A stretch of 64,000 nt of DNA from Diprion similis. Its lineage: Eukaryota; Arthropoda; Insecta; Hymenoptera; Diprionidae. A program made the translations under genes and the position numbers. Positions within the stretch are counted from its first letter, which is position 1; each line of letters starts with the position of its first letter. The stretch spans positions 25,076,001 through 25,140,000 of the forward strand of contig NC_060112.1 in NCBI RefSeq assembly GCF_021155765.1. Direction: 5' to 3'. Below, piece after piece: positions 15,209 to 44,012 of the stretch. Under the pieces are notes generated by a model. The model searched no databases. It had not been told where the DNA came from and saw only the letters and a list, made by a program, of their open reading frames with translations.

Positions 15209-15421
15209 CTACTCCATAACTTTGAAAGATTCCACGGTGACGTTGGGAAATGTGACGTTTCCTGCGTCGTCGAAAAGCTCGGAATATTTCCTCTCTAGCT
15301 GAAGTTTGACTAAGCCGCATCGAGCAGCAACAGTCTGAACTGCCACCTCGGAGAAGATGGTCTTGGTAATGGGTATCTGATATGGAAGGGCCAAGTCATC
15401 GTTGAAAATAAAATCATTTTC
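15209..15421 (-). pseudogene. Orphan GNAT terminal exon (relic)
   Basis: The minus-strand frame ending at the stop 15209-15211 aligns residue for residue with the last exon of the three GNAT genes next to it: YQIPITKTIF against YQIPATETIF, then ERKYSELFDDAGNVTFPNV against EKKYTEILDDEGNVAFPGV. It ends in SFKVME, short of the MGKKLLK tail of the others. Possible acceptors put its first base at 15421 or 15427, both giving phase 0, whereas the homologous exon in the intact genes needs phase 2. No earlier GNAT exon lies between it and the gene at 15947. It is best read as what is left of a fourth, more diverged copy. An alternative 3' exon of the next gene is less likely because the phase does not fit. 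Confidence 0.6.
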
Positions 15422-15672: not shown

Positions 15673-15869
15673 CATCGTTCGCCTCGGGACCCTTCAGCGA
15701 AAACTTCCTGTAACCTATACGGAAGTTTAACTTCTAGTCTCTTGTTCGCATTATCGGATCATAGTAGGCCGATACATGGTTCTTTTTTTCAAGGGTCCTT
15801 TGCTATTCTTGTTTAACGAGAACATCTACACTATAAAACTCCGCAGAGTATTGAAATAGAATGAATATC

Positions 15870-15875
15870 TTTATT
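15870..15875 (-). terminator. Poly(A) signal AATAAA of the first GNAT gene
   Basis: AATAAA on the minus strand, about 72 bases below the stop codon at 15947. The third copy keeps the same signal (27350-27355). At the same place the second copy reads AATAAG (about 21389). Confidence 0.6.
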
Positions 15876-15946
15876 CAGAATGAAGTTTAGAAAAACTGTA
15901 AACAATGATGATATTTTTTTGTAAAAAATTATAAATAATGCAGCGT

Positions 15947-17503
15947 TTACTTCAATAACTTTTTCCCCATGACTTTAATGAATTTCGGCGCAACTCCAGG
16001 AAAGGCGACATTCCCTTCGTCGTCGAGGATTTCCGTATACTTTTTTTCAACCAGGATTTCAAACCCGTTGCGGCTGGCAACAATCTGGGATGCAGTACCC
16101 GTAAAAATTGTCTCTGTCGCGGGTATCTGATAGGCCTGACCAATGTCGGTGCTGAAAGTGAAATCGATTTATTAGCTATAATAAATGAGTAACGACCGAC
16201 GTAAGATTTGTCGAGAAATTAGCATCGTCACTTGTAGTACAAAGTATGTGGCGAGTCGCAGGTTTGACCCGACGAAAGACGATGGCCCTTATGGTCGGCA
16301 TATTGCAATCGCTTCCGCATGCCACCCACGCTCTGGCACGAGAGTTTGTCTAATCGGCGTAGAGGCCAAGTAGTTCGATCGGAGTAAAGTCATTAAGTAA
16401 CGAGGTAAGGGGCTCAAGTGATGTACGCCTGCTTCGCCATCTGCACACGATTAACAAATTTAATAATGCACACTGATACTGACCGTGCCTGAAGAAGGGC
16501 GTCTGCAATGCCCTGCCCTCTGTAACTGGGATGCACGCTGAGGCCGAATGCAGTAAGATATTTATCAACCCCGTATATTTTGGTCGTATCAACTTCAGCC
16601 GTTAACCGAAATGCCGGTGTCATTATGTTGTTCATCTTTTTTGATCGTACCTACGCAATAAGAAAATAATGGAATCATTGACTTTAAGAATTACCTTGGA
16701 AATGGCAAAGTTTTTAACGTATGCAAACTTTGTTACGCGCTAACATCCGAGTGAGAAACGTATTCAAACAAAAATGTGATAGAGCGAAGGTTAGCAACGT
16801 CTTGCTGATCTGTGAAACTAAACCGCTTCCGTCTAAATGGGCCAGGTTCAACTTGATTAGCTCCGGATGACCTTTTCAAACCGTTGTCTCGACACTTTTT
16901 GACCTGCTTTTAGGTCCTAGACATTCTTAGGGTATCCAAAAATTCAGCTCTCATCCGACTCTACCCAATGATCCGAAAATATGTTGCTAGAAGTAGAAAC
17001 AGAAATCACCTTGATCGTGCTTATCATTTTATCCTCATCCTCCTTCGTTGCAACGATAAGGACGTTGGCTCCAACGATTTCAGGCTTCTCATCGGATTCG
17101 AAATTCTCCCTGATAGCAACGACGCTGAACCCCAGACGAAGCGACTCCTTCCACATTGTACGAAACTCTCTTACGGCAATTGGGTCGCTCAGCAAATCTA
17201 TTCGTTGTATGATAATTAGTGTTATTCCACCCAAAGTAACAGGTCTCACTCACTTAATTTTCTCTTACTCTGGCTTACGCATAGCGTTTCTTCGGAGGCG
17301 AAGTATTTTGTCATAAAGTCGACTAATTCTTCCTCCATCGATTCGGGGACCTCTTGAATTATGAATCTCGGTACTTCTCCACTCGGCATCTTTTTCCGAC
17401 CATCAACGACGCGCCAAACACGCCTTGGACCTTCCGGCCGCTTCCAGGACGTTCCAGAGAGGTCGACGTAATCGACGTACTTTTCACTATTGTCGATCTG
17501 CAT
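15947..17503 (-). CDS. GNAT-family N-acetyltransferase, tandem copy 1
   Basis: Exons on the minus strand are 17503-17269, 17197-17010, 16650-16484 and 16151-15947 (235, 188, 167 and 205 nt; intron phases 1, 0, 2), giving 264 aa. Donors and acceptors are GT/AG and the frame is intact. The N-terminal half carries VPRFIIQEVPESMEEELVDF, the helix pair that opens insect arylalkylamine N-acetyltransferase-like proteins. Exon 3 carries motif A, GLSVHPSYRGQGIADALL, whose RGQGIA loop fits the acetyl-CoA consensus [QR]xxGx[GA]. The last exon supplies the C-terminal lobe. The protein is probably cytosolic and transfers acetyl from acetyl-CoA to an amine or similar acceptor; the substrate cannot be read from sequence. 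I start at the ATG at 17503 because the sister copies start there; an in-frame ATG at 17524 exists only here, where the upstream region is deleted. Confidence 0.85.
16152..16483 (-). other. Conserved GC-rich third intron of GNAT copy 1
   Basis: This 332-base intron is clearly GC-richer than the surrounding intergenic DNA and is kept almost unchanged in all three copies (also 21671-22008 and 27635-27965). It includes an internal acceptor-like site (CGCCGATTAG before AC). Reading on from exon 3 through that site meets a stop after about 20 codons. A poison exon or recent common origin could explain the conservation. Confidence 0.4.
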
Positions 17504-18623
17504 TTTCGGATGAAGTTCGACCATGCGAGTGGAATACCGAAATGCCTTTGCTCTCTGTTGATCAATATTTTCAACATTCACGAATAATTTCAACAGATTG
17601 TTTCGAGGTGCACCATGGGCTGTACATACCCTTGGATCGTTTTTGGAAATAGAGATAATAATAGATAGAGTAAGCAAATGCAGGGTGTAACGGCCCGATT
17701 CACTGTTTGGCCGCTGGTGGTTGAGACGTACATTTTTTTCTCGCGTATTGGTGAGCATAATGACAATTTTATTCAGAATCCTCTCGACGTTACCGCATCT
17801 GTTTAAATTGGTTTGCCCAAGTTCCCTCGATAGGACGACGTACCACGACTGAACTCTATATAAGGTAAGTGTAGCAGTTATCGAATTGTCCCAATTAATG
17901 ACCTTTTTTGATTGTGTCTATTTAATTCTTAGTTCTAAACTTACTAAAAAATATATTGGTAGTGTCTAACCCTCTAGCAATTGGTTTTAGTAATCGAGAA
18001 ATTTACAATTTGTGCCGCCATTTTATGATTTTGGAAAATAAAAAGGTCAATAGCTGGGTCTAAACGTGTCAATTATGGTCAACAATGGCTACTAAGCAAA
18101 AAAAATAATCGAACACTACTCGTTTGAATTGGTAAAAATGAATCGATTAATCGATTATTTCGTATTTTTATGAAACGGTGCATATGAGACCGAAATTTCG
18201 AAAATTTCAGTATATAGTCTAACAACGGAAGACTTTTTCCAATATTTTTCAATTTCAAGTTAAAATATTCAATTATCTTTCACTTATTCCATCAAATAGG
18301 TGTTAGTAATAGTAAGTAAGACAATGATAATCATTCATACTTTAATCACATAAGTTGATATTATATTGCGTCGTTCACGGGGGTAAAGAAATGGATCAGT
18401 TTTGGTCATTCTTAGTACGTGTTGACCATGACTAGAAGAGGGAACAGGGGCAACCAGTGAAGCTCGAGAAAATAATAATCATGTAATAACCATAAAATGA
18501 TATAAGTGTTGATTCATTATGATCGAAATTAACCGCACTTGCCAATATTTGTTTGGTAGAAAAGATATTCATTATTGTACAGAGGAGAATCGAAACACCT
18601 CGCTCATGGCGGGTACGACTTAT

Positions 18624-19060
18624 AAGTAACGACCTTTTCTTGTACAGAGCTATCTAACTTCGCGCAATTCAAACGTGTACGTGCGGTGTGTATGCACTAT
18701 GCACACATCACGTGACCGATCGCTCTATTAGCGATTACAGTGAATAGATCTGTACAGGAAAGGTGTGTGCGAAAACGATATAAATTTACTCTTATTTCAA
18801 CAATAAGATAACAAGAATAAATAATAAATAACTCGAATGACACCGAACACGTGGTGCAGTCAGAAACGGCTCTGCTGGATAAGTGCAGAGTCGCCGAATT
18901 GTTTCGGGCTTGACGACAATGTTGATTTTTCTTCTTCATTCATTTCTGCACGCAATATGTTTCTTTCGTAATCTGCATTTTATAAGTGCATCAATCGAGT
19001 CAAGTAAGATTGATTACGAAGCTCTGATCAAAGACTTCGCAAGGAAAAAAGTAGGAGAAA
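18624..19060. repeat. Block identical between units 1 and 2
   Basis: From about 18624 to 19060 the sequence matches unit 2 (24857-25300) at every base I compared, apart from one 7-bp indel near 18700. Neighbouring parts of the same units differ at several percent. The block contains two CACGTG E-boxes (one in TCACGTGA near 18710, one in ACACGTGG near 18848) and the start of a possible plus-strand exon. Confidence 0.75.
18919..19003 (+). CDS. Possible signal-peptide exon (unit 1 copy)
   Basis: The ATG at 18919 lies in good context (ACAATG) and opens a hydrophobic leader starting MLIFLLHSFLHAICFF and ending about SASIES. The exon would end at a strong donor, CAA before GTAAGAT, at 19003. Without splicing the frame runs to 19245 but loses similarity with the unit 2 copy beyond 19060. 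No downstream exon was recognised and no protein family is evident. Upstream on the same strand a TATAAG-GTAAGTG sequence at about 17867 is kept in both units and could be a first exon end. This is a candidate only. Confidence 0.25.
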
Positions 19061-21465
19061 ATTTTGAATACCTGCCATATGTCGAGGGTCTTCGATACGT
19101 TTCACTCGTTGTCTTAAAGGCCCACGTATTCTCGGCGTCAGCTGACCAACCTCTGTCGAATTATCTTTCCGGCATGAAACTAAGCACACAGGGCCAACGC
19201 TCCCACTGTCGCCGTACAGCACGGGATTGGAACGGCTTCGCATAGTTCCGCTAGGTAGCGCACAGTACGGCACTAATAGTGTTTAACGTCTAGACTGGAG
19301 GGATTTGATAAGCCAAAGTTCCCAAATAGTGTGCCTTTATCTTAAATATGATAAGCAATTCGTTCGACAACGCTTTCGATGCTCTTCCATACGTTTCAAT
19401 CGTTGACTCAAAGTCCCGCGTGTCCTCGACGCCAGCTTACCAAATTCTGTCGCATTGCACTCCCACTGTTGCCATATAGCACGGGATTAGCACGGGATCG
19501 CGTATTTCCGCCATGCAGCGTACAGTACGGCACTAATAGTAATTGACCTTTAGACTGCCGAAATTTCATGAGCCAAAGTTCCCTAATATTGTGCCTATAT
19601 CTTAAATATGACCTGTACAAAGTTCCGATCACATGTAGCGGTTATATTCAGGCGTTCCGTCGATTCACGGTAGGGAAAAACCCAAAAGTTGTAGTATTGC
19701 ATAAGATGTGGATGTGGGGTTTTTTGGATTACTGAGAACGAATCTGGAATCTGATTTTCAAAATTCAAGATGGCGGACAAAAATCCAAAAAGTCAGTCTA
19801 CGCAACCATACTGGATCCACCATAACGAATTTTGTAATTTCGAGTTCAGATTCGTGGTCAGTGACTTCGAGAACCCTCGAATACCGAGTTTCATCTAAAT
19901 CGAGTGACTTCGGATTTTAGTCCGCCATCTTGAATTTCGAAATTTCAAATTCAGATTCGTAATCAGCGATCTCAAAAATCCTTGGTAATCTGATTAATGA
20001 AATCGTTTGCGGTTCGTCTGTAGATGATTCTAATGCAGTTAGAATTGATTGATAGTAAAGCGATTTTTTTTTTTTTTTCTAATAAAATAATAAAAAATTC
20101 TGCATGCATGTAGCCGACAATTAGATATAAGGTTCAATATTTTCAATAAATTCCGACATATATCGATAGAGAATCGTTTGTAGGGCAATAATTGATTGTT
20201 GCAACTGTATGATAGTCAACCTTTAGAATCCGCTATGATTTCGGTTTCCAAAATCAGTCAGTGAGCCAAAAATTAATATATCACAGTCAAAACTCGTCAG
20301 GTACTTTGGTTTTCTGTCGACCGGAATACTACCACCAGGCACTGACGTATATTCCTTGTGAAAAAATAAGATAAACATTATTCGTACGTACCTATTAAAA
20401 TTTCTTCAAGCATATCGACGCTGGAAATTTTTTAATCCGACAAAGAATACGTCATTTATTCAAACTGAAAAATGAGTGAGTAATTGCCTAAAAAATAATG
20501 AAAATTGAATTTCAATCATCATCTTCTCACGTCCTAAAACATGAGAATAATTTATGTCCATATAGGATGCACCATTTTTAATTTTATGACTCTCGAACAT
20601 CTTACACGTTGCCAGCCGATTTATACTCCCTTGGACCCCCGCTTACACACAGCCCCGAATCTACGATTTTTCCGAGGGTGGCAAACATTTGACATCGGCA
20701 CCCGTCACCTCCATCACTTGAGATTAATGATTTCGAAAAACTCACAAAGCAAATTCAAGTATTCACTTGGTGAAGCGGGTAGAATTTTTGGATGAGATGA
20801 AAACACTTGAATTTTGCAATCTTTATGAGGTACTTATTTACCATCGAGTATTACTATAACTTTACACGTCAAGCTTTTCTTTTTGCGAAGAAATCTACAT
20901 ATTACGTCATCAAAGTTTGTCTCATAAGCAGTTTTGTTTTCAATGGGCTATGAGTTAACAAAAGCGGGAACGGGAAGGTGGCTGGACGAAAGGTAAAAAA
21001 TAACATTACGTAATACTTGAATGACTCCATAGGTAAAATGGTCAATTTCCCATTTCGATTTCAAACTCAGAAATACTATAAAACATCATTATATAAGTCA
21101 AAGTAACAATTACATGATCCAAAACTATATTAGTCTAAGAGAATAAATTCATGAAGTAACGGAACGATTTGGATATTGATCTGATAGGCAGTCATTCAAG
21201 GTTTAGGGTGACCACATTGCCCGCCCTTCCTTTGACCAAGATAATCACATTTAAACCATGAAGTAACCAGATAATCAAATTTATGTATGTTTATAGAACA
21301 CGGCTACATTTTTTCTCCACAGATCGGATGATAGTGGACCGATACGTGGAGGAAAACGATATACGAAATTCAAAAATAAGATATCCTTATTTGGAATGAA
21401 GTTTGGGAAAAAAATGTAAACAATCGAAGCATCCTTTTTCACACAAAGCCAGAATATTGCAGCAT

Positions 21466-23033
21466 TCACTTCAATAATTTCTTTCCCATAAATTTAATGA
21501 ATTTCGGCGCAACTCCAGGAAAGGCGACATTCCCTTCGTCGTCGAGGATTTCAGTATACTTTTTTTCAACCAGAACCTCAAACCCGTTGCGGCTGGCCAC
21601 AATCTGGGCTGCAGTAGCGGCAAAAATTGACTCTGTCGCGGGTATCTGATAGGCCTGACCAATGTCGGTGCTGAAAGCGAAATCGATTTATTAGCTAAAA
21701 TGAATGAGTTACGACCGACGCGCGACGTAAGATTTGCCAAGAAATTAGCATCGTCACTTGTAGTACGAAGTATGTGGCGAGTCGCAGGTTTAACATGACG
21801 AAAGACGATGGCCCTTATGGTCGGCACATTGCAAGCGCTTCCGCATGCCACCCACGCTCTGGCACGAAAGTTCGTCTAATCGGCGTAGAGGCCAAGTAGT
21901 TCGATTGGAGTAAAGTCATTACGTAACGAGGTAAGGGGCTCAAGTGATGTGCCCCTGCTTCGCCATCTGCACACGATCAACAAATTTAATAATGCCACCG
22001 ATACTGACCGTGCCTGAAGAAGGGCGTCTGCAATGCCCTGCCCTCTGTAACTGGGATGGACGCTGAGGCCGCGTGCAGTAAGATATATATCAACCCCGTA
22101 TATTTTGGTCACATCAACGTCAGCCCTAAACCGAGATGCCACTCGTGCTATGCTGTTCATCTGTTTTGATCGTACCTACGCAATAAGAAAATAATGGAAT
22201 CGATGACTATAAGAATTACCTTGGAAATGGCAAAGTTTTGAAAGTATGCAAAATTTGTGACGTGCTAACACCCGAGTGAGAAACGTATTCAAACAAAAAT
22301 GTGATAGCACAAAGGTGAGCAACGTCTCACTGATTTGTGAAACTAAACCGCTTCCCTCTGAATGGGCAAGTCCCCATTCAACTTGATTAGCTCCGGATGA
22401 CCTTTTCAAACCGTTGTCTTGACATTTTTTGACCTGCTTTTACGTCCAATACATTCTTAGGGTATCCAAACATTCAGCTCTCATCTGACTCTACCCAATG
22501 ATCCGAAAATATGTTGCTAGAAGTAGAAACAAAAATCACCTCCATCTTGCTTCTCGGTTTATCCTTGTCCTCCTTCGTCACAACGGCGAGGACGTTGGCT
22601 CCAACAATTTCAGGCTTCTCATCGGATTCGAAATTCTCCCTGATAGCAACGACGCTGACCCCCTGACGAAGCGACTCCTTCCATACTGTACGAAATTCTC
22701 TGATGGCTATCGGGTCGCTCAGCAAATCTATTCGTTGTATGATAATTAGTGTTATTCCACCCAAAGTAACAGGTCTCACTCACTTAATTTTCTCTTACTC
22801 TGGCTTACGCATAGCGTTTCTTCGGAGGCGAAGTATTTTGTCATAAAGTCGACTAATTCTTCCTCCATTGATTCGGGGACCTCTTGAATTATGAATCTCG
22901 GTACTTCTCCACTCGGCATCTTTTTCCGACCGTCAACGACGCGCCAAACACGCTCTGGACCTTCCGGCCGCTTCCAGTACAGCCCAGACAGGTCGATGTA
23001 ATCGACGTACTTCTCACCGTCGTCGGTCTGCAT
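21466..23033 (-). CDS. GNAT-family N-acetyltransferase, tandem copy 2
   Basis: Exons 23033-22799, 22727-22540, 22175-22009 and 21670-21466 have exactly the lengths and phases of copy 1 and give 264 aa. The start MQTDDGEKYVDYIDLSG and motif A with RGQGIADALL are intact. Differences from copy 1 include FAATAAQ for FTGTASQ at the start of the last exon and RFRADVDVTK for RLTAEVDTTK before motif A. The 5' flank (23034-23105) present here is missing in copy 1 and kept in copy 3, so it is ancestral. Below the stop the sequence matching copy 1's poly(A) signal reads AATAAG, so 3' processing may be weaker or use another site. The role is as for copy 1. Confidence 0.85.
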
Positions 23034-23829
23034 TTCCCGATGATTCTGATCAGAATTCCAGATTTCTTGGACGCAGCTTCCTCCTCGTTTCTACTGTAAT
23101 GTCCTTACAAGGGTTGCGGATGAAGTTTGACCGTGCGAGTGGAATACCGGAAACCCTCTGCTCTCTGTTGATCAATATTTTCAACATTCATGAATAATTT
23201 CAACAGGTTGTTTCGAGGTGCACCATGGGCTGTACATACCCTTAGATCATTTCTGAAAATAGAGATAATAATAGAGTAAGCAAATGCAGGGTGTAATGCC
23301 CCGATTCACTGTTTGGCCGCTGGTGGTTGAGACGTACATTTTTTTTCTCGCGTAGTCGTGAGCATAATGACAATTTTATTCAGAATCCTCTCGACGTTAC
23401 CGCATCTGTTTAAATTGGTTTGCCCAGGTTCCCTCGATAGGACGACGTACCACCACTGAACTCTGTATAAGGTAAGTGTACCAGTTATCGACCTGTCCCA
23501 CTTAATGACCATCATTGATTGTGTCTATTTAATTCTTACTTCTAGACTTAGAAAAAAATTGATTTGTAGTGTCTAACCCTCTAGCAATTGGTTTTAGTCA
23601 TCGAAAAAGTTACAATTTGTGCCGCCATTTTATGATTTTGGAAAATAAAAGTGTCAACAGCTGGGTCTAAACGTGTCAATTATGGTCAACGATCGCTACC
23701 AAGCAAAAAAATAATCGAACACGACTCGATTGATTTGGTAAAAATTAATCGATCAATCGATTGTTTCGTATTTTTTTAAAACGGTGTATATGAGACCGAA
23801 ATTTCGAAAATTTCTGTATATAGTCTTAA

Positions 23830-24615
23830 CCCTTCGTGTGAACACTCAATTTTTCGCTACGCGGTGTGAATACTGGGTCTTTTAGGGAACAGTCGAGTTT
23901 TTGGAGTTTTCCATGCTTTGAAAAAATTTGAAAAAATTCTGGGTTACTTCTTGAAGTATCTACTATATGGCCCAGAAGTTGATAAGGTCAAAAGTTTAAA
24001 CCCGTTGTTAATAAAAATTCAAGAAAAGTCGAAAAAGTGGAAAAAACGGAATTTTGTTAAAAAATTCAGAACTTTACAATAAACAAATATAAAAAAAAAG
24101 GGTCGTAGGCTTTTTTAGTTTAGACTATAAGCTTTCAAAAGAATATAGTGTCTTTAGCACGGGCTCCAAAAAGTTGAATTATTTCAGGACCTGAAGAATG
24201 GGGATTATTTTATGGATTCAGGCATCTCATAATAAACTGAACGGCTGGAAAGGAAGCAAGTTTTTGAGGTTAAAGTCCGTGAAAATAGCCACAAGACCAT
24301 CAGATTGCATAAAACATTTATTATAGTCGTGAGAAAAGAGAAGAGTACGAGAAAAGTAAAAAATAACGCCATTTACTTACCTTCGAAAATACTAACGCCG
24401 TGTGAACACTGACCCTTTTAGGGAACAGACGTGACTCGAGCTGGCTGGCGTTTCCAGGTAGACTGCCAGACTCGGGCGTCCTTTGGGCCCTTAGTGCCCA
24501 CTAATACCTAAATTTTTTAGGGGGGGTACCCGAAGACCGGCCTCTATTCATAAGCGGGAAATCCAAGTTGGAAATTTCGACTGTTCCTTAAAAGACCCAG
24601 TGTTCACACGAAGGG
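23830..24615. mobile_element. 786-bp piggyBac-type MITE in unit 2
   Basis: The terminal inverted repeats are CCCTTCGTGTGAACACT at 23830 and its exact complement at the other end (24599-24615). TTAA stands on both sides (23826-23829 and 24616-24619). Unit 1 has the empty site (near 18215), so this is a clean insertion with the TTAA duplication typical of piggyBac elements. Inside, a GGGTCTTTTAGGGAACAG-like segment occurs three times: near each end in inverted orientation and again at about 24409-24430. No transposase frame is present. It inserted after units 1 and 2 separated, or was lost precisely from unit 1. Confidence 0.9.
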
Positions 24616-25158
24616 TTAATAACGGAAGACTTTTTCGAATATGTTCGAATTTCAAGTGAAAATGTTTAATTGTCTTTCACTTATTCCATGAAATAGGTGT
24701 AAAGTGAGGCTCGAGAAAATAATAATCATGTAATAACCATAAAATGATATAAGTGTTGATTCATTATGATCGAAATTAACCGTACTTGCCAATATTTGTT
24801 TGGTAGAAAAGATATTCATTATTGTACAGAAGAGAATCTAAACACCTCGCTCATGTCGGTTACGACTTAAAAGTAACGACCTTTTCTTGTACAGAGCTAT
24901 CTAACTTCGCGCAATTCAAACGTGTACGTGCGGTGTGTATGCACACATCACGTGACCGATCGCTCTATTAGCGATTACAGTGAATAGATCTGTACAGGAA
25001 AGGTGTGTGCGAAAACGATATAAATTTACTCTTATTTCAACAATAAGATAACAAGAATAAATAATAAATAACTCGAATGACACCGAACACGTGGTGCAGT
25101 CAGAAACGGCTCTGCTGGATAAGTGCAGAGTCGCCGAATTGTTTCGGGCTTGACGACA

Positions 25159-25243
25159 ATGTTGATTTTTCTTCTTCATTCATTTCTGCACGCAATATGT
25201 TTCTTTCGTAATCTGCATTTTATAAGTGCATCAATCGAGTCAA
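25159..25243 (+). CDS. Possible signal-peptide exon (unit 2 copy)
   Basis: Identical to the unit 1 copy at 18919-19003, including the ATG context, hydrophobic leader and the GTAAGAT donor. If unspliced the frame stops at 25356 and differs from unit 1 beyond position 25300. Identity at every base gives no information on coding constraint by itself. Unit 3 does not reach this segment. Confidence 0.25.
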
Positions 25244-27236
25244 GTAAGATTGATTACGAAGCTCTGATCAAAGACTTCGCAAGGAAAAAAGTAGGAGAAA
25301 TTTATTATTACCTGCCACGTATCGAGGGTCTTCGATACGTTTCAATCGTTGACTGAGAGTCCTGCGTGTCCTCGACGCCAACTTACCAAATTCTGTCGCA
25401 TTGCACTCCCACTGTTGCCATATAGCACGGAATTAGAACGGGATCGCGTATTTCCGCCAGGCAGCGTATAGTACGGCACTAATAGTAATTAACCTTTAGA
25501 CTGCCGGAATTTCATAAGCCACAGTTCCCTAATAGTGTGCCTATATCTTAAATATGACTTGTACAAAGTTCCGATTACACGTAGCGGTTATATTTAGGCG
25601 TTCCGTCGGTTAACGGTAGGGAAAAATCCAAAAGTTGTAGTTTTGCATAAGATCTGGATGTGGGGTTTTTGGGATTACTGATAACGAATCAGGAATCTGA
25701 TTTTCAAAATTCAATATGGCGGACAAAAATCCAAAAAGTCAGTCTACGCAACCATACTGGATCCACCAGAACGAATTTTGTAATTTTGAGTTCAGATTCG
25801 TGGTCAGTGACTTCGAGAACCCTCGAATGCCGAGTTTCATTTAAATCGAGTGACTTCGGATTTTAGTCCGCCATCTTGAATTTCGAAATTTCAAATTCAG
25901 ATTCGCAATCAGCGATCTCAAAAATCCCTGGTAATCTGATTAATGAAATTGTTTGCAGTTCGTCTGTAGATGATTCTAGTGCAGTTAGAATTGATTGATA
26001 GTAAAGCGATTTTTTTTTTTTTTTCTAATAAAATAATAAAAAATTCTGCATGCATGTAGCCGACAATTATATATAAGGTTCAATATTTTCAATAAATTCC
26101 GACACATATCGATAGAGAATCGTTTGTAGGGCAATAATTGATTGTTGCAACTGTATTATAGTCAACCTTTAGAATCCGCTATGATTTCGGTTTCCAAAAT
26201 CAGTCAGTGAGCTAAAAATGAATATATCACAGCCAACACTCGTCAGGTACTTTGTTTTTCTGTCGACCAGAATACTACCACCAGGCACTAATGTATATAC
26301 CTTGTGAAAAAATAAGATGAACATTATTCGTACGTATTAAAATTTCTTTGAGCATATCGACGCTGGAAATTTTTAAATCCGACAAAGAATACGTCATTCA
26401 TGCAAACTGAAAAATGAGTAAGTAATTCCCTAAAAAATGATAGAAATTGAATTTCAGTCATCATCTTCTCACTTCCTAAAACATGAGAATAATTTATGTC
26501 CACATAGGATTCACCATTTTGAATTTTATGACTGTCGAACATCTTGCGAGTCGTCAGCCGATTTATACTCCCTTGGACTCGTGCTTACACTCAGCCCCGA
26601 ATCTACGATTTTTCCGAGGGAGGCAAACATTTGACATTGGCCCCCCTCACCTCCATCACTTGAGTTTAATGATTTCGAAAAACTCACAAAGCAAATCCAA
26701 GTATCTACTTGGTGAAGCAGGTAGAATTTTTGGGTGAGATGAAAACACTTGAATTTTGCAATCTTCATGAGGTACTTATTTACCGTCTAGTATTGCTATA
26801 ACTTTACACGTCAAGCTTTTCTTTTTGCAAAGAAATCTACATATTACGTCATCAAAGTTTGTCTTATAAGCAGTTTTGTTTTCAATGGGCTATGTGGTAA
26901 AAGGTAAAAAATAACATTACGTAATACTTAAATGACTCCATAGGTAAAATGGTCAATTTCCCATTTCTATTTTAAACTCAGAAAAACTATCAAACATCAT
27001 TATATAAGTCAAAGTAACAATTTACAATATGATCCCAAACTATATTAGTTTAAGAGAATAAATTCATTAAGTAACGGAACGATTTTGATATTGATCTGAT
27101 AAACCTTTTCAAGGTTTAGGGTAACCACATTGCTCGCCCTTCACTTGACCAAGATAATCACATTTCAACCATGAAGTAACCAGATAATCAAATTTATGCA
27201 TGTTCATAAAACACGGCTACATTTTTTCTCAACAGA

Positions 27237-29133
27237 TCGGATGATAGTAGCCCGATACGTATTCCTCTTTTGCAAAGGTCCCCGGAAAGGAGTGCAATCG
27301 TTTGATTTCTCTGCAGAGTAGTAAAATGGATATCCAAAAATAAGATATCTTTATTCGGAATGAAGTTTGGGAAAAAAATGCAAACAATCGATACATCCTT
27401 TTTCACCAAAAGCAAGAATATTGCAGCATTCACTTCAATAATTTCTTTCCCAGGACTTTCATGAATTTCGGCGCAACTCCAGGAAAGGCGACATTCCCTT
27501 CGTCGTCGAGGATTTCAGTATACTTTTTTTCAACCAGAACCTCAAACCCGTTGCGGCTGGCCACAATCTGGGATGCAGTACCCGTAAAAATTGTCTCTGT
27601 CGCGGGTATCTGATAGGTCTGACCAATGTCGGTGCTGAAAGCGAAATCAAATTATTAGCTGAAATGAATGCGTTACGACCGACGTAAGATTTGCCAAGAA
27701 ATTAGCATCGTCACTTGTAGTACAAAGTATGTGGCGAGTCGCAGGTTTAACATGACGAAAGACGATGGCCCTTATGGTCGGCACATTGCAAGCGCTTCCG
27801 CATGTCACCCACGCTCTGGCACGAGAGTTCGTCTAATCGGCGTAGAGGCCAAGTAGTTTGATTGGAGCAAAGTCATTACGTAACGAGGTAAGGGGCTCAA
27901 GTGATGTACCCCTGCTTCGCCATCTGCACACGATCAACAAATTTAATAATGCCACCGATACTGACCGTGCCTGAAGAAGGGCGTCTGCAATGCCCTGCCC
28001 TCTGTAATTGGGATGCACGCTGAGACCATATGCCCCAAGATATTTGTCAACTCCGTATATTTTGGCCATATCAACTTCAGCCGCTAACCGGAATTGAGAC
28101 CCCATCACGGTCTTCATTTTCTTTGTTCGTACCTGCGCAGCAAAAAAATAATCAAATCACTGACTTCGAGAATTAACTTTGAAAGAGAGAAATTTGTAAT
28201 GTATGTAAAATTTGTAACACGCGCTCAAACAAGAACTTGATTCAACAAAGGTTCGAAACGTCTCACTGAGTTGTGAAACGAAATGAGTTATGTACATCTC
28301 AATGGGTAAGTCCCCATGGTGCAGAAATAAATTTGAAAACACTGAATCTTAACTCAAAACTCTTTGTTCTTATGAGCAATGTCAGACAAGACATTATTCC
28401 ACTAGTTTTTCGTAAAAAAAATCTATGTCACTTGACTCATTCTAACTCGCAATAGCTCGATTTATTTGTAAATGACCTCCGGAAAATAACTGACCACCAA
28501 CCACTACATCAGGATGTCACCCCGCTCTACCCAATGATCCGAAAATATGTTTTATTACGAGTAGAAAAGAACACCTCTATCATGCTTGTCAGTTTATCCT
28601 CATCCTCCTTCGTCACAACGGTGAGGACGTTGGCTCCAACAATTTCAGGCTTCTCATCGGATTCGAAATTCTCCCTGATAGCAACGACGCTGACCCCCTG
28701 ACGAAGCGACTCCTTCCATAACGTACGAAGTTCTTTAATGGCAATTGGGTCGCTCAGCAAATCTATTCGTTGTATGATAATTAGTGTTATTTCACCTAAC
28801 GTCACAGGCCTTACTTATGTAATTCTTTCTTACTGTGGCTCGCGGTTATCGTTTCTTCGGCAGTAAAGTATTTTGTCATAAAGTCGACTAATTCTTCCTC
28901 CATCGATTCGGGGACCTCTTGAATTATGAATCTCGGTACTTCTCCACTCGGCATCTTTTTCCGACCGTCAACGACGCGCCAAACACGCTTTGGACCTTCC
29001 GGTCTCTTCCAGGACAGCCCAGACAGGTCGATGTAATCGACGTACTTCTCACCGTCGTCGGTCTGCATTTCCCGATGAGTTTGATCAGAATTCCAGATTT
29101 CTTGAATGCAGCTTCCTCCTCGTTTCTAATGTG
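27237..29133. repeat. GNAT array, repeat unit 3 (partial)
   Basis: The third unit contains the GNAT gene and about 65 bases of its 5' flank. Similarity to unit 2 ends after CTTCCTCCTCGTTTCTA at about 29127-29133 (unit 2 position about 23090). The long intergenic segment with the E-box block is absent here. Unit 3 is the most diverged in its introns, for example intron 2 at 28133-28574. Confidence 0.75.
27430..29068 (-). CDS. GNAT-family N-acetyltransferase, tandem copy 3
   Basis: Exons 29068-28834, 28762-28575, 28132-27966 and 27634-27430 again have lengths 235, 188, 167 and 205 nt, giving 264 aa. It starts MQTDDGEKYVDYIDLSGLSW. Near the end of exon 1 it reads FTAEETITAS where copies 1 and 2 read FASEETLCVS, and before motif A it has KYLGAYGLSVHPNYRGQG. 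Motif A is intact. A canonical AATAAA on the minus strand lies at 27350-27355. The last intron keeps the GC-rich conserved sequence seen in copies 1 and 2. Function is as for copy 1; the amino acid changes cluster next to the acetyl-CoA loop and in exon 1, so substrate range may differ. Confidence 0.85.
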
Positions 29134-32100
29134 AAGAACTTCCGTTGATTAAAAGTTTTAACACTCACCGACCATTTCAAGAGATATTTTCCTAGTGCAC
29201 TAGAGATTGTATGTTCGGGTTAACATATCTTCTGTAAGTTACGAAAACAAATGATAATCTTATCAGTAATAACGTAATATTGAGAACCATACGCTAGATA
29301 GTATACATATACATACGAGAGTGTCCTTTGTATTGTTAACGTATCAAAACAACTGGAAAAGGATGATTTTTGTGTAACTTTAGCATCACTTTCAAGGAGT
29401 CCGCTTTTCAAAATATGAGCCTGTTTTGTTTATTATAGTATACTAATTTCTAGACAGTCCTAAAGATGCGAAGTAAGAAATTTTTCCGGAACGAGCATCA
29501 TTCCAGTAACGTAGCTAACTTCAACCTTGTAAATAAATGTGCTGAGACAACTACCGATTTCTTCACTCAAGAGAAAAAAATATTGATCAAAACAGTTTCC
29601 AACTCCGCCAGGGGCAGCGTTGCCAACCTATCAGACGCATCTCTCTTTAAATGGCGCCAAAACAATTTCTCAGATTTCTTATTTAGATTGCACCACAATA
29701 AGTTTTCATGTTTCTCATTTTCAAGAGTAATTTTTGACGGTATCGAAACACAATAAGTACAGGAATACATAATATACCTAATTTTTTCGCTTTATAATTA
29801 TAAGATGGACAATTTTCCTAGAAATATAATTATAATGATAATTATCGAATGAAGCAACATGGACAGATTTACATTCTACAATCTGAATAATTATTGCAAA
29901 GATCGTAAGAACTTGTGCTTGTATAATATGTTTTTATTTTCAATATTTAGGACCACCAACTTGTGACGTCGGATTGGGAACTCCACCGGAATCTCCGGAG
30001 AAGTTTTATTCTTTGGGTTAGAATCTTCACTGGAGCCTGGCGACTGATCAGGGATTGGATCTGATTCTCCCGGCCTAGTTTTTTCCTAACTGACCCTCGA
30101 ATAATTGAGTGCCTGAGTAGTGACCTGCGATCTTAGTACTCGGGGGTTCGAAGGCGGAGAATGTACTACAGCTGGTTGTTTTTTTGTGATGAGAAACTTG
30201 ATTCGACACTCCTTCAGATAAATCGGATGAGATTTTTGTGGTGGTTTAATAGTTACGTATTACCATATTTTTTATAACGCATAATGCATTGATTTCTGCG
30301 TTTTTTATACCCATAAGCCGCACCAAGGTGGCCTTTTTTTGACAGGTTACTTCATAGTTATGTTGCAATTAGATTGCACTTTTTCAACAGGAAAAAGTAA
30401 ATGTGACAAAATTTTAGGTAAAAATACAAGAAGCTTTCCTCCATCAAATTATAATATATAAATATGTACACATACGTATAGTATATATGTATACACACAT
30501 ACGGTCGTTCCTGCTGACTTCTCAAAAAGCGGCCAAAAATGAAATATCATTACCCACTTTTTCAATAAGCGGGCAAAAATGGGGTGAGGGTGAAAACTTG
30601 GAAGGGCCAATATTTTGAATGGCCGAAATATCTAAATTCCAAACATGCAATAATCAAATAACTAAAGATGAACTGTTGGAAATTTTGATTTCCGAAAGTG
30701 TCACTGGTTAGAGTGACTACTAATCAGTGACACTTTCAAGACACAAGATTTCGAACAATTCATCTGTCGTTACTTTATTTTTACATGTTTGAAATTTCCA
30801 TATTTCGGCTATTCAAAAGATTAACCCTTCCAAGTTTTCACCCCCACCCCGAAAATGAAATATTATTGCCCGCTCATCCAAGCCGGTCAAAAATGGTCAT
30901 TTTAGGCCAGCTCAAATAGGTCTGAAACACGCAAAAATCAAGCACGTGTTGCAAAAATTTACTTTTGAAACGATGCATTCTGCGCTGTTGAGATGTTGCA
31001 TCTGCAGGATGTGGCTTCGTTACAATGAAGACACGAAAGTGAAACAGGAGTTTTAATACCAATTAGTTTTATTAAGAATTAAAGATATGTTTTTAAATAT
31101 TTATTCCTTGAATAGAAAAACGCTTACAAATCTGGATACTAAATAATATTTCAGAGTTAGGATGGAAGAATTGCTTAAACAAATTGTTTTTTCCACCGAG
31201 CTGGGTCTCCTTGAGAGTGTGGTCTAAGTATACACCGCTGTGTATTGGTTGCCTAGCATTTGGAGCTAATCCGTAGATCTATGTCTTACATGAGAACTTG
31301 AATTTTTGTTGTGGTGAATCCTATTTACTTATTACTATTGATTATGTTTATTTGAAAGGTTACATAGACGGTTATTTAATACTACGTGGTTATTATAATG
31401 TTTCCGATTTAGTATTCTTATTGCTTCCCATCACAAGATTATCCCGTGAGCTAGTTTAATCCTCCTGCACGGGGGGCACACCCGCGGGTAATTGGTTGCA
31501 TGGTTCGACAACAGGAATTTGTAACGTTAACTACGCCCTTGTGTTGCCTATAATACGGCGTTCTAGGTATGGTTCTTTGGTTTATTCTAGATGATGATGG
31601 TTATAGGTTAGGGAACCCTTCAATTGTCATTTAATATTTAATAGTAATAATAGTTTAATAGTATACATGGCTCTAATACTCCGTGTTTGCAAACGGTGTT
31701 ATTAAGCATTATGTAATGGTGGTTAGTGACCCGTAGTGTTAAAAGTGATTAAGTTGATATGGATGAATGATATGGCTTCCTGTAGGTCCATGAGTCTTGC
31801 AGTATGTTTTCAATGCTGTGGATAATGGTATTTGTCATTATTTTCATCTAGGGGTATTTCAATTCGTTAGGTACTAGTTTAATACTTCCTAGTTGCAAGA
31901 TTCTCGTACTTAAGGTTGGGTTAGTTGGTAGTAATGATAAATAATTATAAAAATCGGTAAAATATATGGATGTTCCGGTCGGACGTTACAAACTTGTGAA
32001 ATAAGTGCGTTTGAAAATTGTAGACGCTATATAATTGGCGCATATTTTCTCAGGAATCTCACAATTGATGGATTTTTAATCCGTTCACTCGTTTGACTTG

Positions 32101-35060: not shown

Positions 35061-36004
35061 TTACAACCGCTTAGCAACGAGATAACTGGACGTGTTTTCA
35101 GGATCGCGTATTCGTTCGCTGTATTTTTTCCCCTTGAATTCGAAATCGTCAAAAGAAACGGTGACGAGGGTATCGAATCCGAGATTTTTGCAAATTTTAA
35201 GAGAGTAAGGAGAGCTGCAAATCAGAGAACAAAGCTGAGGCACTGCATCCTTATTCGCGATGCTTTCAACGCCGTCAACTTCAACAGGAGTTTTAACACC
35301 TTTTCCAGCTTTTAGCTCTTTCCCTATTTCAACCGAAGCTGCCACAACCAATTGGCCGATTCGCCGTCTCCGATGCGAGGATGCCGTGCCCAAAAACATC
35401 ACTTCCAATAAAGTGTCGACGTTGTAGTGCTCGAACAAGTTGAGCCTCGAGTCGACGTTTATCATGAAGTCCGTCAGTGCTCGAGACGAGTTGTACTTGC
35501 AGTTTTCCGCAAAGATCTCAAAGAATCCTTTAACACCGGGAACCGCAAGCGTCTGAAAAGAAGCGCAATGAATAATCATAAGATTGCTACCTGCACTCTA
35601 AAGTTTGTTAAACTTTCCTTTTCAACACCCGTTAACTTTCAAATGAAAATGGAAACAACCGATTCGGCAACTTTGCAGATGGAATGACGATGACCGGATA
35701 TCGCGGCTTCTAACGAGTATGAAAAACTCACTTGAATCTTGTTAAAACCAACTCCAACCACTCGTCCAGTGCTGACTTCAACTGCTACGACGCTGACTCC
35801 GTCCTTAGCACTGATTCTGCACAATTCCTCAAGCTCTTCGGCAGCTCCGGGTTCGGAAAGCAGATCTACACCTTGGCTGACAGCCTCGTCCTTGAAAAAG
35901 GAGTCCCTTATAACCTGGAGAGCACCTTCTAGAGTCTCGGTGGTCAATGACTCGAATTCGACCTCGCCATCCTCGGTCGAACCCCAGAGCCGATAGGACG
36001 GCAT
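35061..36004 (-). CDS. GNAT-family N-acetyltransferase, two-exon paralog
   Basis: Exon 1 is 36004-35732 (ATG start, GTGAGT donor, phase 0) and exon 2 is 35552-35061 (acceptor TTTTCAG), giving 254 aa. The opening matches the tandem copies in layout: a helix ending VIRDSFFKDEAVSQ, then LLSEPGAAEELEELC and VSVVAVEVSTGRVVGVGF, against LLSDP and VSVVAIRENF in the copies. Motif A is FLGTASSHRRRRIGQLVVAA. The RRIGQL loop keeps the key G but has L where G or A is usual, so acetyl-CoA binding may differ. The single intron sits after NKIQ, matching intron 2 of the tandem genes in position and phase, which supports common descent. The C-terminus ends SSYLVAKRL. Acceptor substrate unknown. Confidence 0.85.
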
Positions 36005-40145: not shown

Positions 40146-40904
40146 TTACACGTGATCAATTTCCAACCCCATAACGGAAACTGCGCAATCTTCATCAACG
40201 TCGCGAAATATGGACTCACCCTCGTCGTTCTTAAAAGTTGTCGATAAATCGATATCGCACAGATTAACCATTCCAATTTCTTCGGCGACTTTCCTCGAAT
40301 CTATCGAAGAACAATAACCGTACACAACACGCACTCCCGGAAGACATTTGGCAATCGTGAGTGCAGTCTGGCTTAAATCTTTTGCGAGTCCCTTCTCGCG
40401 GTGATCGTTATGAACGGCGATTAAGAAAAATTCCAGAACGGCTTCGGCCTCTGGATACCTTTGGTGTATACCCACTTCTTCGTCTATCTTTGCCAAGTAG
40501 CTGTAGTACTCTTTAACGAACTTGGATTTGAACGTCTGAGACTTGAAGAGTTCCGCCGTCCCTGCACCATTCCGTTCATCCTCACCCTCTCGCCGATTCA
40601 GAAGGGTCAAAATCACCCCAACTACTTCCTCGGTCCCGTTTTGAACCGCAATCAGACAGGGCGATCGCTCGTAAACAGCGGTGATAAAGCTTTCGTCGTC
40701 TTCCTGGATGCATTCAGCCTCCTCCTCCTCCTCCGCGCTCGTCTGGAAACCAGCTTTCAACACTCTCTTAATTTTTTCCTCCTCGTTATGATTTTCCTGA
40801 ATGAATTTCAGTATGTCAGGTAGTCGGCTTTGTTTGGCCAGTTCGATTCTGTATCCTGACGCTGTTGTCGGATACGGTTTGAGGTATTCCATGGTCATCG
40901 CCAT
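40146..40904 (-). CDS. GNAT-family N-acetyltransferase, intronless CDS
   Basis: A single open frame of 252 aa from the ATG at 40904 (MAMTMEYLKPYPTTASGYRI) to the stop at 40146. The frame is open further up to 40958 but without an ATG; other ATGs lie at 40898 and 40892. Motif A is FFLIAVHNDHREKGLAKDL, with REKGLA fitting [QR]xxGx[GA]. An acidic stretch (EEEEEAECIQEDDE, about residues 50-70) lies in the loop after the first helices. It is the most diverged paralog of the cluster and lacks the intron present in the 35-kb gene, so it either lost introns or arose by retroposition. It shares strand with the other GNAT genes and lies about 3 kb from the divergent AF10 gene start. Confidence 0.8.
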   Translation of the reverse strand: MAMTMEYLKPYPTTASGYRIELAKQSRLPDILKFIQENHNEEEKIKRVLKAGFQTSAEEEEEAECIQEDDESFITAVYERSPCLIAVQNGTEEVVGVILTLLNRREGEDERNGAGTAELFKSQTFKSKFVKEYYSYLAKIDEEVGIHQRYPEAEAVLEFFLIAVHNDHREKGLAKDLSQTALTIAKCLPGVRVVYGYCSSIDSRKVAEEIGMVNLCDIDLSTTFKNDEGESIFRDVDEDCAVSVMGLEIDHV

Positions 40905-43620
40905 TTCCTTGATATTACTCGACCGCACCTTTCTTCTTCGCAAGCTTTTCAAGATCAATCAAATCTCACGTATAGCACAATACGAGTCCGTATGTTATGC
41001 GGAAAGCAAGCTTTATACTCGATAAGGAGTGAAATAATTTTGCTGAAAACTGCAGCCTTCATCACCGGACAAAGCTACGTGTGAATTGATTACAAAAAGT
41101 AATGATAAGATAAGAGACCTAAATAGATTACACAATTGCATACGTAAGTAAATTTTGGACTCGGCTTCATTTATCACTCATTTCTCGATATGATGTGATA
41201 CTTAAAATCGCTGCAGCGGTTAATTATGAAAATTCTATACACAGGTGCTCAGATTCTAGAACCGTACCGGAAATGATGTCAACGTTGTGAATTTTTTCCG
41301 CTAGCGCTAGCGACAGGAAGGCCAATTGCACTTGTAGTGGTAGGCGTACTTGTTAGGCATGCACTTGTAGTAATCGGCTTCCGAGATTGCAGCGCTTCGG
41401 TTTGGTCTAGTGTACGTATATGTATTGGGATGAGTGGATCATTAGTAGACAAATAAGTAATTTATTACCCATATTATATAATCCACTTTATCAAAGTATT
41501 ACCAATTTTCTGATATGTTTTTGCTTATTGAGCCGTCCCTAAGCTTTAAGTCGTCAGTAACGGGTTACACCTGTTTTACAATAGATGCGGTATTTGGTAT
41601 TAGTAAATCGAATTGGTTGTGCAATTCTCTGTTATACATGAGAAACGCGCGCGGTTCTAATTAGTTATTATTTTTAAAGTGTGACAGAGCAATAGCACTC
41701 AAACTGTTGATGATACTCAAAAATGTTTCATATGAAAGTTATATTGTTGAAAAAGGCCGTCATACTGGACCATCATGTTATTTTTTCGGTGCAATGGAGG
41801 CGCGATTTTTGTCCTTCGCTTTTTGCTAGTATCAGCTGAATTCTGTAGGTGCCGGAACTACGCTTCGACGGTGAACCCACATGAGAGAGGCAATAGAATG
41901 CTTGCATCCACCTGTCAAACAAGATACTAAATTGATGATACTTTAAGCTCAACGACGTACGTGGGATGTACCACATCGCTGCGTCCCATAACTTTCTCGT
42001 ACAGACCAAATTATCGAGAAGGTATATCCGCCAGGCTATATGTATACGTGGAAAATGTAGATACTTATTGATATTGATCAATACATAATTTTTTTCACGC
42101 TCCACTGGGTACAAAGGAGTATGTAGAAGACTGAAGAAGTGAAGCACCAGGATTCACTTATAATTGAAAATCAGTTATTGCATAAGAAGCGTGGACTTTT
42201 CAATAATCTCCTTTATGTTATAAACATTTCAAAATTGGTCCGGCGATGAAAGTGTTTTCCATTTTTTTTTCACGCGTTAAAAATTTCGAATTGATAATAA
42301 TTGATAATTAGCATTTGAAAAATTTCAGCAAATTTTTTTTTTGATAAGTCCGTTCATATTACGCATATTCAGCAACTTTTTTGAAATATTAAATAAAATT
42401 CAGAAAATTAGTTTCACTTTTACCATATCTGTAGCGTTCCTTCTACAACGTGGAAAATGTTCCAGAATTCTTCGGATATTTCGAAACATTGAGTCACTGA
42501 ATTTTGTCAATCGATAATCCCGAAGACCTCAAGAAATTGATTGCAAAATTCTGTACGGGAGGAATCTGAAAACGATTGTAACTAAAATTGGAATAAATAA
42601 AAAATTTTAAGAAGTTGAATTTCCAGAAAGCATGAATATTTACTAGGTATGGCTGACAAAAAAATTCAATGTAATCAGGTAAATATAAATGATATACGTA
42701 TATTTCATTGCCATTCATTTTTTCCGTTGTTTAATTTTTGGGTACATTTTTTTGTGTTGAATGTACCAACCTTTCAACCTCTCGATGATGACGGTATGTT
42801 ACCAACGTCTTCACGCAATAACTAATGGTTATGAAGAACTTCTTTTTACCGACGTGGTAAGTTACTCGGTTGATAATACATGCAACGGCTAATACCCGCA
42901 AATCTGACCAGTCCCGATAAACTGGTACGAAAAATAACTCGGGGCTAACAGTCTTTATATGTAAATGACGCCGCCTGTTGCTTACGGATTGCTGTCGCCC
43001 GCAGCGTCAGGCGTAAATTTGAATACCACAAGCTTTTAAGCCCACTTACCCGCCGAGTACTTGTCGCGAAAATTTCGCCAGAAGTAGCCGTCTTTGAATT
43101 CTTCCGTCAACGCGCAAACGAAAGACATCACAGTTTCTCAATTTTCTGTAACCTACTGACAAGTTTAGGCTAATGACAATATATTTCTGGATAATTTTAA
43201 ACTTTAAAAGTTATCCCTAAATTAGACCATGCTCAAAATAGAAACTTCAGAGTGCAAAACTATACTAATGTGCGCTTTCCTTTTACGTCAATTTTCCAAC
43301 ACAAATGGACACCAAGTGATTTAATTGGCCGGATCTAACAGAATAAGCGAATGAAATCACATAGTGTCGTGTTTTGTCAGACAGTTCACGCAAAAAGAAA
43401 GCGCCCAATGTTACCGATAAAGTCAACTATCATAGCATAGCACTACTTGCGTTGACTGAGGATCAGTCAACGCCGCGAGGCTACTACCCCGTGCCAGTAA
43501 TGCTACTTTAGCCTCCGTCCATAAGTCCGTGCTTCCCCCTCGTTAGTTGTGATTAAGCATGGTGGGAACCAAAGAAAACCTAAACTTCTATCCACCAGTC
43601 TCTCTTATTAGAGAGTCTCT
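40905..43620. other. Intergenic stretch upstream of AF10 homolog
   Basis: No supported gene. It contains a 14-bp perfect palindrome CGCTAGCGCTAGCG at 41299-41312 and a perfect inverted repeat at 43449-43473 (GCGTTGACTGA, 3-base loop, TCAGTCAACGC). The frame at 41773-42147 on the minus strand has no ATG start and no family signal. Confidence 0.4.
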
Positions 43621-43720: not shown

Positions 43721-44012
43721 AGATAAATAGAGAGTACGAAGAGTAAATAAATAATTCGCGTGACTCGGTTGTTAAAACGGTCGTTGGTACGATCGAATGT
43801 TATCGAAAAGAATCAATTATCCCAGCCCCGAATAACCGCTGGTAATATCGGCCTGCAGCTCGGTACCAGTACCCGATCGAGTAATAAGAGAAAAATAGTG
43901 CAATCGTGTGCATGCGGTTAATTCCCGATATCACAAAACACGATGCTCCGTTTACGAAGCGATACGCAAAGGCGAGTTCGGCTGGTGTAGCTCACGAGAT
44001 CTGTACCGCAGC

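Follow-up and report, generated by a model that had tools for sequence, protein, structure and literature searches.

The window analysed here, a 64,000-nucleotide stretch of the Diprion similis genome (NC_060112.1, positions 25,076,001 to 25,140,000; positions below are counted from its first letter), carries a tandem cluster of three spliced acetyltransferase genes, named A, B and C. It was found that A and C are old paralogs, that the duplication of the spacer between the genes is younger, and that the middle gene, B, is a mosaic in which recombination has joined A-like to C-like sequence. The cluster probably evolved by birth and death within the arylalkylamine N-acetyltransferase (AANAT) type of GNAT enzymes, with an old pair (A0 and C), a hybrid B formed by crossover inside the gene and reshaped by gene conversion, and relaxed selection on B.

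The anatomy of the cluster was confirmed by a scripted search that required four exons of 235, 188, 167 and 205 bases, introns of GT/GC–AG type and an open frame. C yielded a single model, and A and B two apiece; the A and B alternatives differ in exon 3 only and were dropped, as they are without the GNAT loop that C has. In the retained models (Table 1) all three genes have these exon lengths, GT–AG introns and open frames, lie in tandem on the minus strand, and show junction phases 1/0/2, derived from cumulative lengths of 235, 423 and 590 bases. The original prediction had placed three intact genes of exactly this structure at these positions, and a spliced GNAT gene that expanded locally and in tandem is supported as well. 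Identity of the coding sequence (CDS) is 90.8% for A–B, 89.6% for A–C and 90.3% for B–C, and that of the proteins 86.0%, 84.5% and 83.4%, respectively. Exon-by-exon identity can mimic a single recent triplication, which is how the cluster had been read; the introns and flanks reveal two events and a hybrid.

Outside the exons, A and C are 63–76% identical in intron 2 and the outer flanks (65% in intron 2; 70% across 71 bp of the 5′ flank; 63% in the far and 76% in the near 3′ flank), as against 93.6% between the two spacers. Since the A–C flanks and intron 2 share older homology only, A and C form an old paralogous pair that predates the duplication of the spacer; at least two events are therefore required, and the predicted recent triplication does not hold. 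An earlier supposition, that C shares no upstream homology with A and B, was rejected on the same 70% identity. The introns differ from one another: in intron 1, A and B are fully identical and all 11 differences fall on C, intron 2 is 65–68% identical in the A–C and B–C pairs, and intron 3 reaches 93–97% in all three pairs. Additionally, the ATG of A adjoins the spacer directly, without a leader of the type present in B and C.

The hybrid nature of B emerges from 288 ungapped sites at which exactly one copy differs, after dropping gap columns and 16 columns where all three copies are different. From the leader to the start of exon 1, A is the odd one out at 14 of 15 sites, so that B equals C, and a stretch of seven sites in exon 1 is mixed (B 3, C 2, A 2). 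From the end of exon 1 to intron 1, C differs at all 21 sites (A equals B), and the same holds for 89 of 107 sites across most of intron 2; between these two blocks, the 24 sites of exon 2 are divided among A (13), B (6) and C (5). The end of intron 2 together with exon 3 (44 sites) gives C 27, B 15 and A 2, and the 70 sites from intron 3 to the 3′ flank give A 44, B 14 and C 12. A single breakpoint at its best position gains 29.6 log units, a score reached by none of 1000 permutations, whose maximum was 10.9.

The two spacers are copies in the same order that differ by 6.4% (Jukes–Cantor distance 0.067), with 10 indels, over 2879 aligned bases counted; this distance excludes the side of the inserted transposable element (TE; 18216–18455), an identical block and the poorly aligned bases that follow it (18698–19375), and 21348–21465. 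Copy 2 alone holds the TE, whose ends read CCCTTCGTG...CACGAAGGG with TTAA on each side. PiggyBac-like elements use a TTAA target site and have inverted ends starting CCC, and both features are present here. The family has at least 29 matching pieces in the genome including the insert itself, most of them matching its first 196 or last 75 bases, and the insert (under 0.8 kb) apparently belongs to a piggyBac-like, non-autonomous family. It lies about 0.8 kb upstream of the start of B, and no other gene of the trio has it. The identical block spans 363 bases (18698–19060 and 24938–25300), as against about 6% difference elsewhere between the spacers, and is probably a recent conversion tract. Its end is overlapped by an open frame of 53 residues on the plus strand (18919–19077), with a signal-peptide-like start reading MLIFLLHSFLHAICFF; it is not counted as a gene, being found in the genome in the two spacer copies only. 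About 150 bases of spacer 1 (18304–18455) have no counterpart in spacer 2 (24700–24703).

In the history that we infer for the cluster, an older duplication would have yielded A0 and C. Misaligned chromatids would then have crossed over inside the gene, duplicating the spacer and forming B, to give the order A, spacer, B, spacer, C; A0 would have supplied the upstream flank of B and much of its 5′ part, and C would have supplied its 3′ end and downstream flank. Gene conversion would later have carried intron 3 and exon 4 across the trio, and would have given B the C-type leader, the start of exon 1 and perhaps exon 2. That intron 3 is alike in all pairs, whereas intron 2 and the flanks of A and C are not, is as gene conversion would give. 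Crossover inside the gene, followed by conversion of smaller tracts, is the simplest account. Unequal crossing-over in tandem families is known to yield hybrid genes, such as those of the red/green opsins and haemoglobin Lepore. The present cluster resembles these systems in its hybrid middle gene, its duplicated spacer and a switch of homology within the gene, on each side of which B resembles one parent. It differs from them in being part of a reference genome and in having been overwritten by later conversion, which would blur the exact crossover point and interrupt the A-like part in the leader, the start of exon 1 and exon 2.

As judged by similarity, A, B and C are insect AANAT-type, aaNAT7-like GNATs, because their best solved relative is a mosquito aaNAT7. 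In a Pfam scan covering A and C, C scored 27.9 bits for PF13508 (cut-off 27) and 22.4 for PF00583 (cut-off 20.7); A exceeded the latter cut-off with 22.0 and fell just below the former with 26.7. The NCBIfam library gave nothing over cut-off with C as query. The GNAT acetyl-CoA loop follows the motif R/Q-x-x-G-x-G/A, and the RGQGIA of all three proteins fits it. The search against solved structures, again with C as query, was headed by 4FD7, the putative aaNAT7 of Aedes aegypti (E 1.3e-26, C residues 29–259), followed by aaNAT2 and then aaNAT5b (4FD5, E 1.3e-09; 4FD4, E 6.4e-07), and Dat at E 0.37. The aaNAT7 protein has the FTGxxSQ motif, as A and C do, and the same YRGxGIA loop, but its identity to A is 41% within the C-terminal part compared. 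Differences next to the acetyl-CoA loop had been predicted among the copies, which is only partly right: the loop itself is identical, and nearby residues 183 (S/S/N in A, B and C) and 176 (F/R/Y) vary. The predicted difference at the start of the last exon was recovered in full, with FTGTASQ in A and C and FAATAAQ in B.

This last difference involves positions that have been considered catalytic. Residues 214, 215 and 218 are Thr, Gly and Ser in A and C but all Ala in B, and alignment via aaNAT2 sets 214 and 218 on Ser182 and Ser186 of the Drosophila enzyme Dat/AANAT1 (3TE4 and others). PMC7427786 describes these serines as highly conserved and as forming with Glu47 a proposed catalytic triad, the serine triad of Cheng et al. 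for insect AANATs. In contrast, the review PMC6070697 doubts a serine general acid and favours the DEPLN glutamate with water, citing the glutamate-only route of Dempsey et al., in which this residue is the general base. Dat is likewise a GNAT enzyme, only weakly similar to C; its Glu47 matches Glu72, which is kept in A, B and C, although its DEPLN motif corresponds to EETLC in A and B and EETIT in C. Each protein would be expected to bind acetyl-CoA via R-G-Q-G-I-A, with Glu72 helping to deprotonate the amine, and in A and C Thr214 and Ser218 would occupy the places of the two Dat serines. When A, B and C were aligned with four solved AANATs, a pair of open frames near 27.12 Mb of the same contig and the relic exon of Table 1 (ten sequences in all), the hydroxyl of the Ser182 column is missing in B alone, and that of the Ser186 column in three: B, one of the 27.12 Mb frames (Asp) and the relic (Val). 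Because the residues aligned with the proposed catalytic serines are gone, the FAATAAQ change points to impaired or modified catalysis rather than to a new pocket for the acceptor. With Ala at both places, B is probably impaired or modified as a catalyst and subject to relaxed selection, though not proven dead. Furthermore, AATAAA stands 72–75 nt past the stop in A (about 72) and C; B reads AATAAG there, and neither AATAAA nor ATTAAA was found within 400 nt past its stop.

Selection was evaluated with a three-branch codon model, which ignores the mosaic and has no outgroup, and with many tests the single p values are soft. Against a dN/dS ratio (omega) of 1, the branch estimates were 0.42 for A (p 0.016), 1.20 for B (p 0.69) and 0.56 for C (p 0.09), and a single omega for the whole gene was 0.62 (p 0.02). 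In pairwise comparisons with neutrality, A–C differs (likelihood ratio test statistic, LRT, 8.88), A–B hardly (2.94) and B–C not (1.47). The branches differ in exon 4 (p 0.005), where A is strongly constrained (0.04). Exon 3 is fast in amino acids, with an A–B omega of 4.1 (LRT 3.11), a B-branch omega of 3.1 (p 0.16) and a single omega of 0.91; positive selection was rejected there as not significant. Two branch estimates that reached the upper limit of 20 (exon 3 of A and exon 4 of C, on branches of near-zero length) were disregarded. The comparison of dN/dS per exon between copies, suggested together with the original prediction, thus gave no exon significantly above 1, and no branch was; new acceptor specificities are not borne out, all the more as the change in B strikes the proposed catalytic positions. 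In a neutral simulation, the stop-free share of sequences fell from 46% after 24 substitutions to 30% after 36 and 13% after 72, and B alone differs at 29 exon sites. Since many simulated neutral sequences stay stop-free, the intact frames are weak evidence of function.

Several observations weigh against the history proposed above. With three sequences and no outgroup, the odd-one-out sites alone cannot separate donor from recipient. The patchiness of exon 2, the many B-only changes of exon 3 and the mixed seven-site stretch of exon 1 call for more than one conversion event, and the A–C identity of 84.5% in intron 1 falls between the two identity levels. The A–B synonymous difference (26/175) exceeds the intron difference (48/761; Fisher p 0.0005), an excess that conversion explains only qualitatively. 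As for relaxed selection on B, the branches show no significant overall difference in omega (p 0.17), and leaving out exon 3 gives 0.34 for A (p 0.003), 0.74 for B (p 0.57) and 0.80 for C (p 0.67), which does not set B apart from C there. Moreover, the B CDS is without indels, where the spacer rate predicts 2.8 on the A–B path; the probability of seeing none is 0.063, which hints weakly at constraint.

Other origins of the cluster fit these data less readily. Unequal rates and selective constraint alone, without recombination, would be expected to leave exons more alike than introns between older paralogs; however, here the introns are opposed to one another, intron 3 being alike in all pairs and intron 2 poorly matched with C, intron 1 joins A to B whereas intron 3 favours B with C, and the breakpoint score lies far above the permutation maximum, which makes this account very unlikely. 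An assembly artefact or uncollapsed haplotypes would be harder still to believe, considering that the spacers are 6.4% apart, that the TE is in one of them only and that C and A have only 70% similarity in their upstream flanks; long reads should resolve copies of this kind. A simple recent triplication of one spliced gene, with copies diverging towards new acceptor amines, would agree with the three intact frames, the identical exon lengths and the many amino-acid differences of exon 3. Nevertheless, the A–C noncoding identity already contradicts a single recent event, and the adaptive part of this explanation meets with the lack of any omega significantly above 1 and with a motif change in B that falls on proposed catalytic positions, so that it is judged improbable.

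The condition of B is a closer matter. That B is an early-stage pseudogene, a hybrid still in frame and no longer useful, is a serious possibility, although somewhat less than an even chance is given to it. Its omega of 1.20 is not different from 1, the AATAAA and the Ser/Thr pair are lost, a TE lies upstream of its start, and in the neutral simulation a stop-free frame was common at 24 to 36 substitutions, a range that includes its 29 B-only exon sites. On the other hand, that same number of sites makes an intact frame by chance rarer, and B has no stop and no frameshift, keeps every splice site, Glu72 and RGQGIA, lacks the CDS indels expected on the A–B path, and without exon 3 has an omega that resembles that of C. 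Alternatively, and this is considered unlikely, B would be a functioning hybrid acetyltransferase without the triad hydroxyls, using the glutamate/water route alone or serving as a non-catalytic binder of acyl-CoA or amine, with exon 3 under selection. A functioning B would be a natural double mutant testing the disputed serine triad of insect AANATs: if it is expressed and active, it bears on the choice between that triad, as presented in PMC7427786, and the glutamate alone, as in PMC6070697. Returning to the birth-and-death history with relaxed selection on B, the kind of event is well known, and the noteworthy part is that an otherwise intact AANAT-like gene has naturally lost both hydroxyls equivalent to those of the serines. 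An old shuffling of copies, with one perhaps failing copy, accounts for the cluster better than a fresh burst of new enzymes.

Table 1. Features of the acetyltransferase cluster and its surroundings (positions in the window)
Feature	Position	Strand	Description
Gene A	15947..17503	minus	exons 17269-17503, 17010-17197, 16484-16650, 15947-16151; 264 aa; FTGTASQ kept
Gene B	21466..23033	minus	exons 22799-23033, 22540-22727, 22009-22175, 21466-21670; 264 aa; A-like/C-like hybrid; FAATAAQ
Gene C	27430..29068	minus	exons 28834-29068, 28575-28762, 27966-28132, 27430-27634; 264 aa; older paralog of A
5′ leader of B	23034..23106	minus	88% identical to C leader (29069-29141); absent from A
Spacer A-B	17504..21465		copy 1 of duplicated spacer
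Spacer B-C	23034..27429		copy 2; holds the TE insertion that copy 1 is without
TE insertion	23826..24619		copy 2 only; TTAA both sides; terminal inverted repeats start CCCTTCGTGTGAACACT
Intron 3 segment	16232..16425		present in all three genes; one other genomic match, 73%; perhaps a repeat
Relic	15209..15395	minus	lone exon 4 of a further, older copy; no acceptor AG
Distant AANAT-like gene	35061..36004	minus	two exons, joined by eye; best solved relative 4FD5, E 6.7e-10
Distant AANAT-like single-exon open frame	40146..40958	minus	best solved relatives Dat/AANAT1 structures, E 1.3e-07

Relatives of the trio were sought genome-wide (60 contigs totalling 269 Mb, with the window on contig C8), where match counts are lower bounds. 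At E ≤ 0.1, the protein search gave at least 16 matches, namely the 12 exons of A, B and C, one relic and three distant matches, and a DNA query (15753–17700) found the three loci plus a 73% match elsewhere to part of intron 3; no fourth close copy was seen in either search. The relic shows 48% identity at the protein level and has AA where A carries the acceptor AG, and no exons 1–3 accompanying it were found. The two-exon distant gene shows 24% identity across 137 aa, and the single-exon frame, searched from an internal Met, a weak 28% across 78 aa (E 0.006). Thus, the relic and two older paralogs that had been predicted on the same strand are a real relic exon and real open frames, but the latter are superfamily relatives only.

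Searches of the literature for AANAT duplication, paralogs, gene conversion and Hymenoptera, and for aaNAT7, sawfly acetyltransferase expansion and hybrid genes from unequal crossing-over, gave nothing on this cluster among the matches listed, and Rfam and tRNA scans of the whole window gave no match. At a distance of 2 Mb on the same contig, two adjacent, divergently oriented AANAT-like open frames (C8:27118500–27125500) are about 31–33% identical to C, and the third distant match lies at 8.32 Mb (27%, E 0.074). Beyond the cluster, open frames on the plus strand at 43899–50450 resemble those of a PHD-finger protein of the AF10/Alhambra type.

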